Below are positions 32,690 through 42,709 of a stretch of DNA of 64,000 bases, piece after piece (within the stretch, counting starts at the first letter, position 1; every line of letters begins with the position of its first letter). This DNA comes from Catenulispora sp. MAP5-51 (lineage in GTDB: Bacteria; Actinomycetota; Actinomycetes; Streptomycetales; Catenulisporaceae), in assembly GCF_041261205.1 (NCBI RefSeq), contig NZ_JBGCCH010000007.1:248001-312000 (forward strand), read 5' to 3'. The translations under genes and the position numbers were made by a program. The notes under the pieces are model-generated. The model was not told the DNA's origin. It was given only the letters and a program-made list of their open reading frames with translations, and searched no databases.

Positions 32690-34504
32690 CTAGGTGAGGC
32701 AGGTGATCTGCACTGGTACGAGAGGAGAGCTCCCGCTGGTCCCGGCGCCCGACCAGGTCACGTATACGTTGCCATCCGTGCTTCTACCTGGTCTTTCTGT
32801 GGTCGTGAAACTCTGGGAACCGTTCGCCTTCAGGGTCACCGGTCGTTCGGTGACGGTGCTGCCGCTCGACAGATGCCACGTGTAGTTGATGATTGCCGAA
32901 CCGTTTGGAAGGTAGCCGGTCGTGAACGCCACGCTGTAAGTGGCTATGCACTGCGCTGGTGGGTCGCTTGTCACCGAGACCGCCGCGTCGATGGAGACCT
33001 GCGGGCTCGAGGACGTGCTCGACGACGGCGTGCTCGGGATCGACGTGCTCGGCGGCGAGGACGGACTGTGGGACGTCGGCGTGGTCGGCCGTGAGGTCGG
33101 CGACGAGGGCTTGGTGGACGGCTTGCTCGACGGTGAGGAGCCGGACGAGCTGAACGGTGAGCCGGCGGAAGACGAGCTCGAACTCGAGGAACCCGATGAG
33201 CTGGACGAACTTGATGAGCTCGACGAGCTGGACGAACTCGAGGAACTGGACCCGATCGTCGGCGCGGCCCCGGAGTCGCTGTCGGTCGGCGTGCCGGTGG
33301 GGCTGCCGGCCGTCGGGGTGAACCCGCCGGACGTCGGGCTGGGCGGCGCGGCCCGGTGGGTCGGCTTGCTGTTGCCGGCTACGGCCACGGCCGTGACGGT
33401 GAGGATGACAGCGGCCACGATCGCCACCGCGGCGGCCAGTTTGGCCTTGCCGGGTATGCGGCGCAGCGAAGAGCGGCTCGCCCCGACACCGCCCGTGGGC
33501 CCGTTGCCCCCGCCGTTCGGCGCCTCGAGGTCCTCGGGGCCGTCCGGAGTCCGCGGGCCCAGCGCCAGCGTGTCCACCCCGCCCGCGGCGACGCCGCCCG
33601 GGCCGATGAACCCGAACAGCGGCAGCAGTACGGCGATCTCCTGGCGGCCGCGCTCCTCCCACTCGACGCCGTAGTTCTCCGTCGCGACGCGCTCGACCTC
33701 CGCGACGAACGCCGACACGTCCTGCGGCCGCTCGGCCGGGTCCTTCGCCAGGCCGTGGGCGATCAGCTGCTGCACGTCCTCCGGCACCTCGGCCAGCGGG
33801 ATCGGCGCGGTGCGGTGCTTCTCCTCGAGCTCGTAGACCGTTTCCGCCGAGTAGGGCACCTTGCCGGTCAGGCACTCGAAGAACGACGCGGTCACCGCGT
33901 AGATGTCCGTCACCGGCTGGGCCGGCGCCCCGTCCCACTGCTCCGGCGCCATGTACGCCGGGGTGCCGACGCCGCCGGGCATGGTGGCGTCCGGGTCGGT
34001 CTCGACGATCGGCGCGGCGCGCTCGGCGACGCCGAAGTCGGCGAGTTTGCTGACCCCGTAGGCGTTGAGCAGCACGTTCGACGGCTTGTAGTCGCGGTGC
34101 ACGATGCCCAGCTGGTGCGCCGCGCCCAGGCCCAGCAGCGAGCCGCGCATCACCGACAGCGCCGCCTCCGGCGCCATCCGGCCGTTCTCGTGCAGCATGC
34201 GGTGCAGGGTCGGCCCGGCGACCAGCTCCATGACCATCGCCGAGCCGGCCTCGGACTCCGACTCGGACTCGGACTCGACGTAGTCGAAGAGCTGGACCAC
34301 GTTCGGATGCCGGATCTCGGCCAGCAGCGCCGCCTCGGTGCGGAAGCGCTCGACGAAGTCCGGGTTGTTCACAAAGCGTGGACTCAGGTATTTAATCGCT
34401 ACTTCGGTGCCGGTCCCGTCTTGGACGGCCGCCACTACTCGCCCGGTCGCACCGGCGCCGAGGTTCTTGGTTTCCGTGTAGCCCGGAACACTCCAGCCAG
34501 ACAA
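32690..34504 (-). CDS. Membrane Ser/Thr protein kinase with poly-Ser linker and extracellular Ig-like domain
   Basis: 604 residues from a TTG preceded by AGGGGGA; a longer ATG start lacks a site. The kinase domain (~8-275) has GAGATGRVV, VAIK (Lys38), HRDYKPSN (136-143; Tyr replaces the usual Leu), DFG (156-158) and APEQW. An acidic insert ESESESESE lies in the hinge region before MVMEL. A single membrane helix (~356-377) is followed by an extracellular stalk with a run of about 25 Ser residues, then Ser/Pro/Thr repeats. A final ~100-residue beta domain contains two Cys (AQCIATYSV, VQITCLT). This PknB-like topology fits a receptor kinase. Cytoplasmic substrates and external ligand unknown. 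Confidence 0.92.
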   Translation of the reverse strand: MSGWSVPGYTETKNLGAGATGRVVAAVQDGTGTEVAIKYLSPRFVNNPDFVERFRTEAALLAEIRHPNVVQLFDYVESESESESEAGSAMVMELVAGPTLHRMLHENGRMAPEAALSVMRGSLLGLGAAHQLGIVHRDYKPSNVLLNAYGVSKLADFGVAERAAPIVETDPDATMPGGVGTPAYMAPEQWDGAPAQPVTDIYAVTASFFECLTGKVPYSAETVYELEEKHRTAPIPLAEVPEDVQQLIAHGLAKDPAERPQDVSAFVAEVERVATENYGVEWEERGRQEIAVLLPLFGFIGPGGVAAGGVDTLALGPRTPDGPEDLEAPNGGGNGPTGGVGASRSSLRRIPGKAKLAAAVAIVAAVILTVTAVAVAGNSKPTHRAAPPSPTSGGFTPTAGSPTGTPTDSDSGAAPTIGSSSSSSSSSSSSSSSSSSSGSSSSSSSSAGSPFSSSGSSPSSKPSTKPSSPTSRPTTPTSHSPSSPPSTSIPSTPSSSTSSSPQVSIDAAVSVTSDPPAQCIATYSVAFTTGYLPNGSAIINYTWHLSSGSTVTERPVTLKANGSQSFTTTERPGRSTDGNVYVTWSGAGTSGSSPLVPVQITCLT

Positions 34505-34647
34505 CGCTTTTCCCCCTGTTTGTTGCCTCGCGGCTGCCATTTACGCGCAGCGTACCAGGGGGAATAGAACATCTTGGCGACGTTCCCGGCAATCGGCTCT
34601 GTACCGGGATGCCGACCGGATGTCGAGGGGGGTGTCGAGCGCTCTGG

Positions 34648-37417: not shown

Positions 37418-37584
37418 GCCTCTCATTCTCCGCGCCCGGTGGCCGACGGCTCCGATTCCTTTACCAACGCTTTACAACCGACCCCCGGTCCCGGTCGTCT
37501 CTCCGCGTGATTCGCCCAACGGATCCGCCTCGGATCCGTCACAGACCACAGATCCCCCAGGGATCGATCGAGGAGACAGACCTC

Positions 37585-37989
37585 ATGCGTACTCGGAGTT
37601 TGCTCACCACCGTGGCCTCCACCATGCTGCTGGCCGGTGCCGGAGCGGGGACGGCGTTCGCCGACGGCACTTCCAGCCAGCCCTCCGCCGCGCCCACCAC
37701 CCCGTCGGCGTCCGCCAGTTCGGCGCCGGCTTCGGCGCCCTCCGCCGCGCCGACGACCGCGGCCCGCCCCGTCCCGTCGGCCTCCGCCGCGCCGAGCACG
37801 GCGCCCGCGTCGAGCCGGGGCGGCTCCGACCAGGTCGGCGCGGTGCCCTCGGGTGCGCCGAACACCGGCGTGCCGACGAACACGTCGAACGGCTACGGGG
37901 CGGTCGAGGCGGTCGGCGCCGGCCTGGTCCTGCTGCTGGGCGGCTCGGGCGGCGTGATGCTCCGCCGCCGGACCAAGGGTCAGGGCTGA
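37585..37989 (+). CDS. Small secreted surface protein with C-terminal sorting-like signal
   Basis: 134 residues, AGGAG before ATG. A signal peptide (TTVASTMLLAGAGAGTAFA) is followed by ~70 residues rich in Ala, Ser, Pro and Thr, a typical wall-spanning stalk. It ends with the motif PNTGVP, a hydrophobic helix (AVGAGLVLLLGGSGGVML) and the positive tail RRRTKG. This layout mimics an LPxTG-type sorting signal, though the LP is replaced (GAPNTG). The sortase gene begins 2 bp after its stop, so it is the likely substrate or partner of that sortase. First gene of a four-gene operon. Confidence 0.8.
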   Translation: MRTRSLLTTVASTMLLAGAGAGTAFADGTSSQPSAAPTTPSASASSAPASAPSAAPTTAARPVPSASAAPSTAPASSRGGSDQVGAVPSGAPNTGVPTNTSNGYGAVEAVGAGLVLLLGGSGGVMLRRRTKGQG

Positions 37990-37991
37990 TC

Positions 37992-38663
37992 TTGCGGCCG
38001 TCCTGGACGCGCGGGTGGCCGGCGCTGCTGGCCGTCCTGATGCTGGCTTCCGGCTGTGGCGCGTCGTCGGGAACGTCGGGAACGTCGGTCGGCGGTACTG
38101 GGAGGTCTGCCGGCGACACCACGACGAACTCGACGATGTCCTCCTCCACGGCCGGCGCGGGCACATCAGGGGGTGCGTCGGGCAACCCGGCGGGCCTCGC
38201 CGCGATGGCCCGCTCCGTCCCGGTACGGCTGCAGATCCCCGACATCGGCGTCGACACGCCGGTGATGTCGCTCGGCCTGGCCGCCGACCACACGGTCGCT
38301 GTCCCCCCGATCGAGGCGAACAGCCCCGCCGGCTGGTACAACGGCTCGCCGACGCCCGGGCAGACCGGGCCGTCGGTGATCCTCGGGCACGTGACGGTCG
38401 GCAAGTACGGGAACGGCGTCTTCCTCCAGTTGTCCCGGCTCAAGCCCGGCGCGCGGGTGGTCGTCCAACTGCAGGACGGCGCCTCGGCGGTGTTCACGGT
38501 GGACAGCGTGCGCACGGTCGCCAAGGACCAGTTCCCCACCCAAGAGGTCTACGGGAACGTGAACCGGCCGGAATTGCGTCTGATCACGTGTGGGGGAGCG
38601 CGGACCAGCGACGGCTACCTCGACAACGTGTTGGTGTTCGCGTCGCTGTCTGGAGAGAGTTGA
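37992..38663 (+). CDS. Class F sortase
   Basis: 223 residues from a TTG that starts two bases after the preceding stop. The N-terminal segment (ALLAVLMLASGCG) includes a possible lipobox, then a Ser/Thr/Gly linker. The sortase barrel has PVRLQIPDIGVDTPV, the His in SVILGHVTVGKYG (His133), the Cys in LRLITCGGAR (Cys200) with a nearby Arg204, and a final YLDNVLVFA. This matches class F sortases, which act on the outer face of the membrane by transpeptidation at a sorting motif. The stop codon overlaps the start of the sigma factor gene. The short surface protein upstream is its probable substrate. Confidence 0.9.
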   Translation: MRPSWTRGWPALLAVLMLASGCGASSGTSGTSVGGTGRSAGDTTTNSTMSSSTAGAGTSGGASGNPAGLAAMARSVPVRLQIPDIGVDTPVMSLGLAADHTVAVPPIEANSPAGWYNGSPTPGQTGPSVILGHVTVGKYGNGVFLQLSRLKPGARVVVQLQDGASAVFTVDSVRTVAKDQFPTQEVYGNVNRPELRLITCGGARTSDGYLDNVLVFASLSGES

Positions 38664-39172
38664 TCCGGTCCAAGGATTCCGGAGAGCAGAGTCGGGCGGC
38701 GTCCGACCTGTTCACCGATCTCTATCCCGGCCTGGCCGGCTGGTGCCGTCGTCTCGTCGACGACGACGGCACCGCCCACGACATCGCCTCGGAGGCGTTC
38801 ACGCGCCTGTGGGGACACTGGACCGCGGTGCGCGAGCCGCGCGGCTTCCTCTACGTGACCGCGGCCAACCTGGTCCGCGACCACTGGCGCAAGCTGGACC
38901 GCGAACGCCGGGCGCTGCGGCGGGCCACGACCGAGGCGGAGCTGGCGCGGCCGGCGGAGGGCGCCGACGCCTCGGTCTCGGTCCGGATGCTGGTGCGGTC
39001 GCTCCCGGAGCGGCTGCGCACGCCTGTGCTGCTGTACTACTACGCCGACCTCCCGGTCCGGGAGATCGCCCAGCTGACCAGGCGGAAAGAAGGAACGGTC
39101 AAATCCGATCTACACGCGGCACGGGAACTCCTGCGCGCCGGACTCGGAGGACATCTTGATCACACTCATTGA
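38660..39172 (+). CDS. ECF-type RNA polymerase sigma factor
   Basis: About 170 residues from a TTG that overlaps the sortase TGA; GGAGAGAG lies just upstream. Region 2 reads DLFTDLYPGLAGWCRRLVDD, then AHDIASEAFTRLWGHW and GFLYVTAANLVRDHWRK. Region 4 reads SLPERLRTPVLLYYYADLPV, then REIAQLTRRKEGTVKSDLHA. It should direct transcription of a small regulon, perhaps including its own operon. It overlaps by 17 bp with a downstream one-pass membrane protein gene, the usual place for an anti-sigma factor. Confidence 0.9.
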   Translation: MIRSKDSGEQSRAASDLFTDLYPGLAGWCRRLVDDDGTAHDIASEAFTRLWGHWTAVREPRGFLYVTAANLVRDHWRKLDRERRALRRATTEAELARPAEGADASVSVRMLVRSLPERLRTPVLLYYYADLPVREIAQLTRRKEGTVKSDLHAARELLRAGLGGHLDHTH

Positions 39173-39815
39173 GCCCCCGGACGACGACGGCGAAGACGAC
39201 CGTGCCCACGACGGCGAAGGCATCACCGATGACACCTCCGGCGCCATGACCGACGACGACCTGCTCGTGGTGCTGCGGCCCGGGATCTCGGTCCTCGCGC
39301 CGCCGCCGGGCACGTTCCAGCGGATCCGCCGCCGCGCGGCCCGCCGGCGCATGGTCCGTGCCGCGACCACCGCGGGCGCGGGGGCCGGGGCGGTGATGGC
39401 GGCTCTCGCGATCACCGTCGCCCTGTGGCCCTCCGGTCCCGCGCTCGGTCCCGCACCGGTGCGGCCGCTAGCCCCGGGGCCGCAGACGACCAGCGTGCCG
39501 GCCGCCCCCGTGCCGACTCCCACTCCCCACCCGGTCACGACGACGCCGGCCCAGTCCCAGTCCCCCCTTCCCAGCTTTCCCAGTACGCCCAGCTTTTCCA
39601 GTGCACCCAGCACTGCCGCGCGTCCCGGCCCCGGGGCGACCGACCGAGGACCGCTGCCGACCACCTCGGCGTCGAATGAGCCGTCGAACGCGGCGTCGAG
39701 CATGCCGTTGAACGAGCCGCCGAGCACACCGAACAGCCGGGGGGCGACCGCGCCGTCGGGTGCGCCGACCGCTCGGACCACGACCGCTCCGACACCCAGC
39801 GCTCTTCGGCGGTGA
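39156..39815 (+). CDS. One-pass membrane protein, candidate anti-sigma factor
   Basis: 219 residues from a TTG with GGAGG upstream, overlapping the sigma gene by 17 bp. An acidic cytoplasmic N-terminus (PPDDDGEDD; TDDDLLVVLRPG) leads to a basic segment (FQRIRRRAARRRMVR), a membrane helix (AGAGAVMAALAITVALWP) and a ~130-residue Pro/Ser/Thr/Ala-rich extracellular tail with repeats such as FPSTPSFSSAPST. No ZAS zinc motif (HxxxCxxC) is visible, so this is not a classical zinc anti-sigma. Gene order and topology still make it the best candidate for controlling the sigma factor in response to the wall. Confidence 0.7.
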   Translation: MITLIEPPDDDGEDDRAHDGEGITDDTSGAMTDDDLLVVLRPGISVLAPPPGTFQRIRRRAARRRMVRAATTAGAGAGAVMAALAITVALWPSGPALGPAPVRPLAPGPQTTSVPAAPVPTPTPHPVTTTPAQSQSPLPSFPSTPSFSSAPSTAARPGPGATDRGPLPTTSASNEPSNAASSMPLNEPPSTPNSRGATAPSGAPTARTTTAPTPSALRR

Positions 39816-39881: not shown

Positions 39882-39910
39882 TTGACAGGCCTGTGGTCTA
39901 GTCCAATTAT
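39882..39910 (+). promoter_or_regulatory. Promoter with near-consensus DasR (dre) site before chitin operon
   Basis: TTGACA, 17-bp spacer and AATTAT form a sigma-70-like promoter. In the spacer lies TGGTCTAGTCCA, matching 11 of 12 bases of the dre core TGGTCTAGACCA known for the GntR-family repressor DasR of Streptomyces, which controls N-acetylglucosamine and chitin genes. The site would block the promoter when bound. Confidence 0.7.
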
Positions 39911-39962
39911 GTGCCCTGCGGCTCCGGAGCCACCCCTGTTCCGACGTCATTGGGAGCACACC

Positions 39963-41039
39963 ATGAGCCTGTTCCCCATCAGGCGACGAATACCCGAGCA
40001 CGCCCCGAGCCGCCGGCCGGGTCCCCGTCTGCGCGCGTTGCTGGGCGCCGTGGCACTGACCCTCACGGCTTTCGGCGCGGTCGGGGTGGTGGCCGCGCAG
40101 CAGGCCCGCGCCGACGGCACCTCCTCGCTGCCGACCTGTCCGTTCTGGACCAACGTCACCCCGCCCCCGCGCACCGACACCCCGTGGGTGCCGCCGTCGC
40201 AGACCGCTCAGCCCGTGGACTTCTCCGCGCGACTGGCCGCCCCCGGCGGCGTCACCGGCACCCTGACCGGCAGCCAGGTGAACATCACCTTCGACCGCGT
40301 GCCCGGGGCCCAGGCCTACCGGGTGTGGCGCAACGGCCAGGCCGTCGCCTGGGTCTCCGACTGGGGCCAGCCCGCCCTCACCGCGGTCGACACCGCGCCT
40401 TGTCAGAACGCTTACTACTCGTTCGAGGCGATGGCCGACCAGAGCGGGGCCGACTCCTCGCTGGGCCAGATGTCCGCGCCCTACCAGCTGGACTCCGACG
40501 GCGCGGTGGTGCCGTGGCAGACGCCGGTCGGCAGCACCATGACCATGATGGTGACGTCGTACAACGACGGCGGGGGCACGGCTTCGGGCTACAACGCGCA
40601 GCTCGGCGTGTGCGCGGTCGATCCGCGGGTGATCCCGTGGGGCACGTACTTCACGGTGCCCGGCTACGGCACCTGCTACGCCGCCGACATCGGCACCTGG
40701 ATCCAGAACAACACGGTCGACGTCTGGCTGCCCGGCTCGCAGGCGAACGGGTGGGGCGTGCAGCACCGCACGGTCACCATCCTCGCCAACCCGTTCAGCG
40801 GCCCGACGCCGCCGCCGTCCAGCTCGCCGCCATCGAGCTCGCCGCCGACCTCGCCGACGTCCCCGACCAGCTCCTCACCCGGCGCCTGCACCGCCGCGCC
40901 GTGGACCTCCGCCACGCCCTACAGCGGCGGCGCGACCGTCAGCTACGGCGGCCACACCTGGACCGCCAAGTGGTGGACCCAGGGCGACGTGCCCGGCGCC
41001 AACTCCCAGAACGTCTGGACGGATGACGGATCATGCTGA
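39963..41039 (+). CDS. Secreted 3D-domain protein with chitin-binding module
   Basis: 358 residues, GGGAG 7 bases before ATG. Signal peptide (ALLGAVALTLTAFGAVGVVA...ARA), then a fibronectin III-like region (GVTGTLTGSQVNITFDRVPG, RVWRNGQAV). Next comes a 3D domain (CAVDPRVIPWGTYFTVPGYG, YAADIGTWI, VDVWLP), whose conserved Asp residues are catalytic in MltA-type lytic transglycosylase folds. A Ser/Pro linker leads to a CBM5/12 chitin-binding module (WTSATPYSGGATVSYGGHTW, AKWWTQGDVPG). It may hydrolyse or loosen glycans on chitin or cell wall. It overlaps the chitinase gene by 7 bp (ATGCTGA), so the two are translationally coupled. Confidence 0.87.
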   Translation: MSLFPIRRRIPEHAPSRRPGPRLRALLGAVALTLTAFGAVGVVAAQQARADGTSSLPTCPFWTNVTPPPRTDTPWVPPSQTAQPVDFSARLAAPGGVTGTLTGSQVNITFDRVPGAQAYRVWRNGQAVAWVSDWGQPALTAVDTAPCQNAYYSFEAMADQSGADSSLGQMSAPYQLDSDGAVVPWQTPVGSTMTMMVTSYNDGGGTASGYNAQLGVCAVDPRVIPWGTYFTVPGYGTCYAADIGTWIQNNTVDVWLPGSQANGWGVQHRTVTILANPFSGPTPPPSSSPPSSSPPTSPTSPTSSSPGACTAAPWTSATPYSGGATVSYGGHTWTAKWWTQGDVPGANSQNVWTDDGSC

Positions 41040-42709
41040 GAACCCTGAGCGCCCTGAAAATCCTCCGCGGAAGTCTGATCGGCGCTCTCGGCGCCTGTGC
41101 CCTGCTGACCGGCAGCCTGACGCTCGCCGCCTCGCCGGCCGCCTCGGCGGCAGCTCCCACCGCAGCTCCCGCCGCCGCGACCCCGCTGCCCACCGCGGCC
41201 TACACCAAGATCTCCGACTGGGGCAGCGGCTTCCAGGCGCAGTACGTGATCACGAACCCGATGTCCGTCCCGCTGAACACCTGGTCGCTCCAGTTCAGCC
41301 TGCCGGCGACCGAGAAGATCACCAGCATGTGGGGCGGCACCGACACCGCGAGCGGCACCACGCACACCGTCGCCGCGCAGTCCTACGACACCACGATCGC
41401 CGCCGGGTCCTCGATCACCGTCGGCTTCGACGCGAGCTACTCGGGGACGTACGCGGACCCGTCCACCTGCAAGCTCAACTCAGACCCCTGTGACGGCAGC
41501 GCGGACGTCCAAGCCCCGTCCGCGCCGACCGGCCTGACCGCGCTGAGCACCACCTCGAGCGCGGCGTCCCTGTCCTGGACCGGATCCACCGACAACGTCT
41601 CGGTCGCCGGCTACAACGTGTATTCGGGGTCGGCGATCGTCGCCACCTCCCCGGGCACGGCGGCGACCGTCACGGGCCTGGCGCCCTCGACGTCCTACTC
41701 GTTCACCGTGCGCGCCTACGACGAGGCCGGGAACCTGTCGGCGCCCAGCGCCGCCGTCAGCGCCACCACCCTGCCGAACACCGGCGGCGGGCACCTGCCC
41801 GGCCTCGCGGCCCCGTTCGTCGACATCGGCGCCTGGCCCACCCCGAACCTGACGCAGATCGCCGAGACGACGGGCCTGCGCCAGTACTCCCTCGGCTTCA
41901 TCGTCAACGGCACCGCCGCCTGCACGCCGAGCTGGTTCAACGCCTACGCCATGAACGCCGGCTTCGAGCAGTCGGACATCGCGAGCCTGCGCGGCATCGG
42001 CGGCGACGTGAAGCCCTCCTTCGGCGGCGAGGCGGGCACCGAGCTGGCCCAGTCCTGCACGGACGTCCCGTCCCTGACCGCCGCCTACCAGTCGGCGATC
42101 ACGGCCTACAACCTGACCCAGATCGACTTCGACATCGAAGGCTCCGCGGTCGCCGACCCGGCCTCGATCGATCGCCGTTCCCAGGCCATCGCCGCCCTGC
42201 AGAGGACCGCGGCCGCGGCCGGCAAACCCCTCACCGTCACCCTGACCCTCCCGATCCTGCCCTCCGGCCTCACCTCCGACGGCCTCTCCGTGGTCCAGTC
42301 GGCCGTGAAGTACGGAGCCAAGATCACCCTGGTGAACGGCATGGCCATGGACTTCGGCGACATCGAGGCCCCCAACCCCAACGGCCAGATGGGCACCTAC
42401 GCCATCGACTCGGCGAAGTCCCTCTTCAACCAGCTGACACCCCTGTACCCGGCCCTCACCGCGGCGCAGGTCTGGAACATGGTCGGCGTCACCCCGATGA
42501 TCGGCCAGAACGACGACTCCTCGGAGGTCTTCTACCAGGCGGACATGCAGCAACTCCTCACCTTCGCCCAGCAGCAGCACCTCGGCGAGCTGGCGTTCTG
42601 GGACGTCACCCGCGACGGCAACGCCTGCACCGGCTCGCTGTCGAAGTGCACGGACATCACGCAGACGCCGTATGAGTTCTCGAAGATGATCGCGCCTTAC
42701 CAAGGCTGA
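41033..42709 (+). CDS. Secreted GH18 chitinase with CBM2 and fibronectin III
   Basis: 558 residues. Signal peptide, then a CBM2-type polysaccharide-binding module (KISDWGSGFQAQYVITNP, LNTWSLQFSLP, TCKLNSDPC). One fibronectin III domain follows (APTGLTALSTTSSAASLSW, SFTVRAYDEAGN). The C-terminal GH18 barrel contains VKPSFGGEAG and the catalytic DxxDxDxE-like strand NLTQIDFDIEGSA, with Glu as acid/base. Length and order match actinomycete endo-acting or exo-acting bacterial GH18 chitinases of the ChiC/ChiD-like group. Coupled to the upstream 3D/chitin-binding gene; control by chitin degradation products through DasR is likely from the dre site. Confidence 0.93.
   Translation: MLRTLSALKILRGSLIGALGACALLTGSLTLAASPAASAAAPTAAPAAATPLPTAAYTKISDWGSGFQAQYVITNPMSVPLNTWSLQFSLPATEKITSMWGGTDTASGTTHTVAAQSYDTTIAAGSSITVGFDASYSGTYADPSTCKLNSDPCDGSADVQAPSAPTGLTALSTTSSAASLSWTGSTDNVSVAGYNVYSGSAIVATSPGTAATVTGLAPSTSYSFTVRAYDEAGNLSAPSAAVSATTLPNTGGGHLPGLAAPFVDIGAWPTPNLTQIAETTGLRQYSLGFIVNGTAACTPSWFNAYAMNAGFEQSDIASLRGIGGDVKPSFGGEAGTELAQSCTDVPSLTAAYQSAITAYNLTQIDFDIEGSAVADPASIDRRSQAIAALQRTAAAAGKPLTVTLTLPILPSGLTSDGLSVVQSAVKYGAKITLVNGMAMDFGDIEAPNPNGQMGTYAIDSAKSLFNQLTPLYPALTAAQVWNMVGVTPMIGQNDDSSEVFYQADMQQLLTFAQQQHLGELAFWDVTRDGNACTGSLSKCTDITQTPYEFSKMIAPYQG

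Follow-up and report, generated by a model that had tools for sequence, protein, structure and literature searches.

Gene organization and limits of the operon

Can an exported protein, a sortase, a sigma factor and a membrane protein whose genes run into one another be regarded as a single self-contained unit, and what would such a unit do? This question is raised by four consecutive genes in the 64,000-nucleotide stretch of Catenulispora sp. MAP5-51 DNA analyzed here (the window). Their products are, in order, a Pro/Ser/Thr-rich exported protein, a class F sortase, an ECF sigma factor and a one-pass membrane protein (Table 1). The four genes and their junctions (+2, -4 and -17 bp), read directly from the sequence, were the same as those given in a preliminary description of the locus. 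Start codons were inferred as ATG for the surface protein and TTG for each of the other three. In the RefSeq annotation of S. fungicidicus (NZ_CP023408), gene order and the 17-bp overlap between the sigma and membrane protein genes are identical, and the products are named hypothetical protein, class F sortase, RNA polymerase sigma factor and hypothetical protein.

Table 1. Features of the operon and its upstream region (positions in the window)
Feature	Position	Strand	Details or basis
Upstream near-copy CTTTACCAAC of CTTTACAACC, imperfect	37459..37468	+	11 bp before the promoter block
ECF-type promoter CTTTACAACC-N15-TCGTCTCT	37470..37502	+	Conserved in 79/80 relatives; sole match in own genome
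Promoter elements: -35 CAACC, 16-bp spacer, -10 CGTCTC	37475-37479 (-35); 37496-37501 (-10)	+	Alignment upstream of the surface gene
Surface protein	37585..37989	+	134 aa; signal peptide, P/S/T/A-rich stalk, sorting motif, C-terminal hydrophobic segment, RRRTK tail
APNTG sorting motif, residues 91-95	37855..37869	+	Consensus (V)P(S)GAP[DN]TGV
Class F sortase	37992..38663	+	NCBIfam NF033748; His133, Cys200, Asn212 replacing the usual Arg
Predicted lipobox LASG/C, sortase residues 18-22	38043..38057	+	Sequence rule
ECF sigma factor, regions 2 and 4	38660..39172	+	PF04542 and PF08281 above cut-off; TIGR02937 56.1 bits
One-pass membrane protein, putative minimal anti-sigma	39156..39815	+	Sequence, family HMM, AlphaFold
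Conserved cytoplasmic motif LAPPPGTFQRIRRRAARRRMVRAA, residues 47-70	39294..39365	+	32-aa HMM
Transmembrane helix, about residues 72-91	39369..39428	+	Hydropathy; AlphaFold helix 79-90
Outer P/S/T-rich tail	39429..39812	+	Composition matched to the surface-protein stalk

The gene that follows (39957) has a separate sigma-70-like promoter of its own (39882-39910), which makes 39815 the probable end of the operon. A terminator-like site was not detected. The downstream region (39957-42706) encodes a secreted 3D-domain protein with CBM5/12 and then a CBM2-fn3 protein. Elsewhere in the window, on the reverse strand (32690-34540), lies a gene for a Ser/Thr-kinase-like protein whose predicted external part holds a long poly-serine run.

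Conservation of the unit

As the relative set we took the sigma factor's 80 best named relatives, which come from Catenulispora, Streptomyces, Actinacidiphila and Streptacidiphilus. A class F sortase gene was immediately upstream of the sigma gene in all 80, and the 17-bp sigma/membrane gene overlap was kept in 67 of 73. The sigma clade occurred in 147 of 392 genomes of the order, in single copy except for one genome with two. For comparison, we assembled 32 loci of other class F sortases, of which a phylum-wide sample supplied 28 and the own genome four; a sigma-family profile, which may miss very divergent ECFs, detected no ECF gene at a distance of up to about 1.5 kb from any of them. The conserved linkage, the single conserved ECF-type promoter at the 5′ end (see below) and the lack of a detectable ECF gene at the 32 comparison loci strongly support the earlier proposal of a self-contained operon. 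No account of it was found in the open-licence literature; the unit is genuine and conserved and, as far as that literature shows, undescribed.

Membership of the sigma factor (170 aa) in the ECF group was clear, with scores of 43 bits for PF04542 and 48.1 bits for PF08281 and with sigma regions 2 and 4 only, whereas for the SigE family (TIGR02983) it scored 82 bits against a curated cut-off of 141.55. In a tree of 46 sigma proteins, the sortase-linked members fell on one side of a branch with support of 93/84, which is consistent with a single recruitment.

The unit has parts of known kinds. New are the way in which these are combined, the self-directed promoter, a minimal partner motif of wide occurrence and outer domains that mirror each other. 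It appears to be of the ECF sigma/anti-sigma kind, with putative anti-sigma action and an unusual output, surface display. In Streptomyces, the ECF sigma factor BldN and its membrane anti-sigma RsbN control the wall-associated chaplin and rodlin proteins, some of which are sortase substrates. The targets of that pair are encoded elsewhere and depend on class E sortases for anchoring, whereas here the substrate, a class F sortase, the sigma factor and its partner are encoded in one operon.

Proposed mechanism

We propose a single autoregulated circuit for surface display made up of the four genes, and put the probability of this reading at about 0.66; what goes beyond co-transcription in the following scheme is what we infer. 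The sigma factor would recognize CAACC-N16-CGTC, and its main or only target for transcription would be the operon that encodes it. The short cytoplasmic part of the membrane protein, with two short helices and a PPPG linker in a CnrY-like layout, would hold the sigma factor at the membrane, and the 17-bp overlap would keep synthesis of the membrane protein in step with that of the sigma factor. An outside event acting on the tail or outer domain would free the sigma factor, and more substrate, sortase and anti-sigma would then be made. The lipid-anchored sortase would use AP[DN]TG as the site for attaching the surface protein to the wall. Given that the membrane protein's outer part looks like the displayed protein, the putative anti-sigma would probably sense whatever ligand, layer or protease the displayed protein meets, giving feedback on display.

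A quadruple class F sortase deletion in Actinoplanes missouriensis had no phenotype (PMC13251363), which counts against reading the operon as a display circuit. For one class F sortase, a substrate motif and a promoter can be proposed from the operon, along with a switch, so that the enzyme could be turned on deliberately, by releasing the sigma factor and looking at the wall.

Resemblance between the displayed protein and the outer part of its partner

The analysis also points to a mirrored design of sensor and substrate. A DUF4232 domain is part of the membrane protein in three Actinacidiphila operons (L061, L089 and L115); exactly these three also have one in the substrate, 66-79% identical to the partner copy within the operon. 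None of the other substrate/partner pairs in the set gave a similar match. In a fourth genome (G534), which holds the two-copy set, a substrate/partner DUF4232 pair was found 2.5 kb apart. Between L061 and L089, substrate copies are most like substrate copies and partner copies most like partner copies, which implies that the pair has persisted for some time, and it probably had a single origin. A general DUF4232 mirror was considered and rejected, as the domain pair occurs only in the Actinacidiphila-type genus.

Stalk and outer tail are both of low complexity in the operons other than these. Their composition was closer within an operon than with the nearest relatives in 42 of 63 cases (p = 2.2e-5), and the sortase linker, used as a control, showed no composition matching to either stalk or tail (p = 0.65 and 0.40). 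Stalk and tail lengths were weakly correlated (rho 0.34). These patterns suggest that sensor and displayed protein may meet the same partner, layer or protease; the low-complexity case could reflect a shared physical role.

A close competitor, with a little under an even chance of being correct, holds that stalk and tail are alike because they span the same wall or are modified by the same glycosylation enzymes, with no shared ligand or feedback. Low complexity on both sides agrees with such an origin, as does the fact that related strains are also similar in composition. However, the sortase linker, which shares both compartment and operon, does not co-vary with stalk or tail, and the DUF4232 mirror demands more than a spacer.

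A single conserved promoter

Alignment of the regions 5′ of the surface gene across the relatives yielded a promoter block about 110 bp upstream of the start quoted in the preliminary description. Allowing up to three mismatches in 18 positions, it was present in 79 of the 80 relatives, with 52 exact matches; shuffled regions had 5-8 mismatches at best. In the remaining relative, L107, the region contains runs of N together with an inverted repeat and may be misassembled.

At the same threshold (three mismatches or fewer to the 18-base consensus), the operon promoter was the only site in the own genome. Among 60 relatives, all 25 genomes carrying the sigma factor had one site each, at the operon, and among the 35 that lack it, a stray site was found in one, before an unrelated gene. 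A good match to the operon promoter, before an unrelated gene, lies at 1501-1533 of locus L167 in a Streptomyces-family genome (G035) without the sigma factor; it probably reflects chance or another ECF. Upstream of distant sigma genes that have no sortase, [CG]AAC[CT]-N15/16-CGTC occurred in 18 of 21 cases, against a shuffling expectation of 0.59. Occurrence of the same bipartite motif at these genes implies that the promoter type tracks the sigma lineage and not the sortase. Since this is a hallmark of autoregulation, the sigma factor very probably transcribes its own operon.

Whether the operon is the sole target is a further point. A larger regulon, of which the sortase and surface genes would be only the nearest members, is a doubtful alternative. 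The search covered close matches to the full 18-base consensus only, and the bare CAACC-N16-CGTC core is expected many times by chance, which leaves room for such a regulon; but a single site at up to three mismatches in a genome of 10.9 Mb, and one site per genome in the sigma-bearing relatives, argue for the operon as the main or only target.

The near-copy of CTTTACAACC that precedes the promoter block contains TTTGCC or TTTACC, nearly invariant in 79 relatives, and resembles a direct repeat placed in helical register. This putative element may be a second regulator's site or an extended promoter element.

The membrane protein as a putative anti-sigma factor

The membrane protein has an acidic N terminus, a predicted helix at residues 34-39, a predicted basic helix at 53-72, a transmembrane segment and a disordered P/S/T-rich tail. 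It had no match in Pfam or NCBIfam, nor in a profile search of the PDB, and no known anti-sigma factor was detected by sequence. Because the protein has no cysteine, it lacks the HxxxCxxC zinc motif and does not belong to the ZAS group, in agreement with the preliminary description. That description had also suspected a new kind of wall-sensing anti-sigma factor. The missing zinc motif is no argument for a new kind, since about 44% of class I anti-sigmas lack it (PMC7406223). Wall sensing is hypothetical; the outer part varies from relative to relative and in one clade mirrors the sortase substrate.

The most conserved part is the cytoplasmic side, where DDPLxVxLRP is followed by LxPPPGxFExIRRRAARRRxLRAAAG and then by the transmembrane segment; the tail is less conserved. 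A 32-residue HMM of the second cytoplasmic segment was built from sortase operons only, and its best matches among 1442 ORFs were proteins encoded directly after distant, sortase-less sigma factors. A membrane partner gene followed the sigma gene in all 16 distant cases checked. Outer parts of these distant partners included DUF4232 (above the Pfam cut-off), BNR-type repeats (above the cut-off in one protein) and, below the cut-off, a carboxypeptidase-regulatory-like domain. The motif LxPPPGxFExIRRxAxRRR is covered by no Pfam model. Pairs of an ECF sigma factor and a one-pass protein with this motif and varied outer domains were seen at L026-L030 and L129-L145, across Actinomycetota.

AlphaFold predicted a short helix at 34-39, a helix at 53-72 (pLDDT about 82), the transmembrane helix and a disordered tail, with low overall confidence (mean pLDDT 59). 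Compared with the four-helix ASDI (more than 50 aa), the protein had no Pfam match and showed, in this low-confidence model, helices 34-39 and 53-72 before the membrane. The two predicted cytoplasmic helices may correspond in layout to the CnrY-type two-helix segment that wraps the sigma factor, with the same low confidence and with no PDB profile match. CnrH-CnrY, of the class II membrane-anchored ECF pairs, likewise involves a one-pass protein that is encoded with its sigma factor and has a short cytoplasmic part, of two helices as apparently in the operon protein. However, the operon protein has no detectable sequence similarity to CnrY, is actinobacterial, has other gene neighbors and carries a P/S/T-rich or DUF4232 tail.

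The anti-sigma role suggested earlier therefore gains genomic support in that the cytoplasmic motif tracks the sigma lineage also in the absence of a sortase, and the protein is most likely a minimal anti-sigma, predicted to have two helices, whose sensor part can be exchanged. It might instead be a positive partner of the sigma factor or its membrane tether, or else serve the surface protein as a structural partner, with sigma activity set only by transcription. We consider this improbable: the protein matches no known anti-sigma domain, its basic juxtamembrane helix could be a mere stop-transfer or topology element, and an anti-sigma is dispensable for some ECFs, but the cytoplasmic part is the conserved piece among relatives with differing outer domains, the gene always sits right after the sigma gene, the usual anti-sigma position, and a positive loop with no brake would lock on.

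With the membrane protein taken as a putative anti-sigma, the findings point to a widespread, unnamed sigma-partner family with interchangeable outer domains. A bolder proposal, which we offer tentatively and would not bet on, is a self-monitoring display circuit in which the outer part would be a copy or mimic of the displayed protein, so that the cell could gauge ligand bound, cleaved or missing and adjust substrate and sortase, and in which LxPPPGxFExIRRxAxRRR would be a widespread minimal anti-sigma module of Actinomycetota with varied grafted sensors.

Sorting signal and class F sortase

The surface protein has the layout of a sortase substrate, with a signal peptide (residues 1-26), the motif at 91-95, a hydrophobic segment and RRRTK; the motif is not a canonical LPxTG. 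APxTG was recognized in 74 of the 80 relatives, mostly as GAPDTGV or GAPNTGV, and AAxTG in four more. The signal had been reported as PNTGVP; a sorting motif is indeed present (GAPNTGVP) but is better written (G)AP[DN]TG(V). The NCBIfam GVDTG sorting domain (NF058571) is likewise a non-LPxTG signal ending in TG, whereas the surface protein scored 13.8 bits against its cut-off of 29 and has AP[DN]TG instead.

The sortase scored 190.6 bits for NF033748 (cut-off 166) and only 21.4 bits for class E; a single-sequence PDB search gave no match. Its catalytic signatures are GHV, ITCGG and DN, and among the 80 relatives TC was found in 80, GH in 73 and DN in 74. The Arg-to-Asn replacement has been reported for actinobacterial class F sortases (PMC6998099). 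Judging from adjacency and motif, the sortase is presumably specific for the surface protein. That another sortase anchors this protein, leaving the operon enzyme to processing, housekeeping or some other task, is the least probable alternative: class F sortases have no assigned function (PMC6998099) and SspA of A. missouriensis is anchored by SrtE, not by the four SrtF enzymes (PMC13251363), but in the genomes retrieved the motif and the sortase are co-inherited.

At the four other class F sortase loci of the own genome (L031, L032, L034 and L035), a small exported protein with a C-terminal transmembrane segment, an RRR tail and no PxTG is encoded upstream of the sortase, with possible unrecognized sorting signals. 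The srtF1 and srtF4 genes of Actinoplanes missouriensis have a similar neighbor with a C-terminal transmembrane segment and a basic tail (PMC13251363). Unlike the operon, these two and the four own-genome loci have neighbors with no recognized pentapeptide and no sigma gene nearby. Small exported neighbors at other class F sortases imply that a sortase with a private substrate may be a general design, in which case the sigma pair is what sets the operon apart.

The operon sortase is a predicted lipoprotein. A lipobox was found by rule in 73 of 79 operon sortases and by eye in the remaining six, and most Streptomyces operon sortases combine a twin-arginine signal with a lipobox (SRRAF...LLVGC). 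The other four class F sortases of the own genome, in contrast, are transmembrane-anchored and lack a lipobox. The idea that a lipoprotein sortase is unique to the operon was rejected, as 7 of 31 other class F sortases (L208, L210, L214, L217, L219, L231 and L232) also have a lipobox; lipid-anchored sortases may be a wider, overlooked class.
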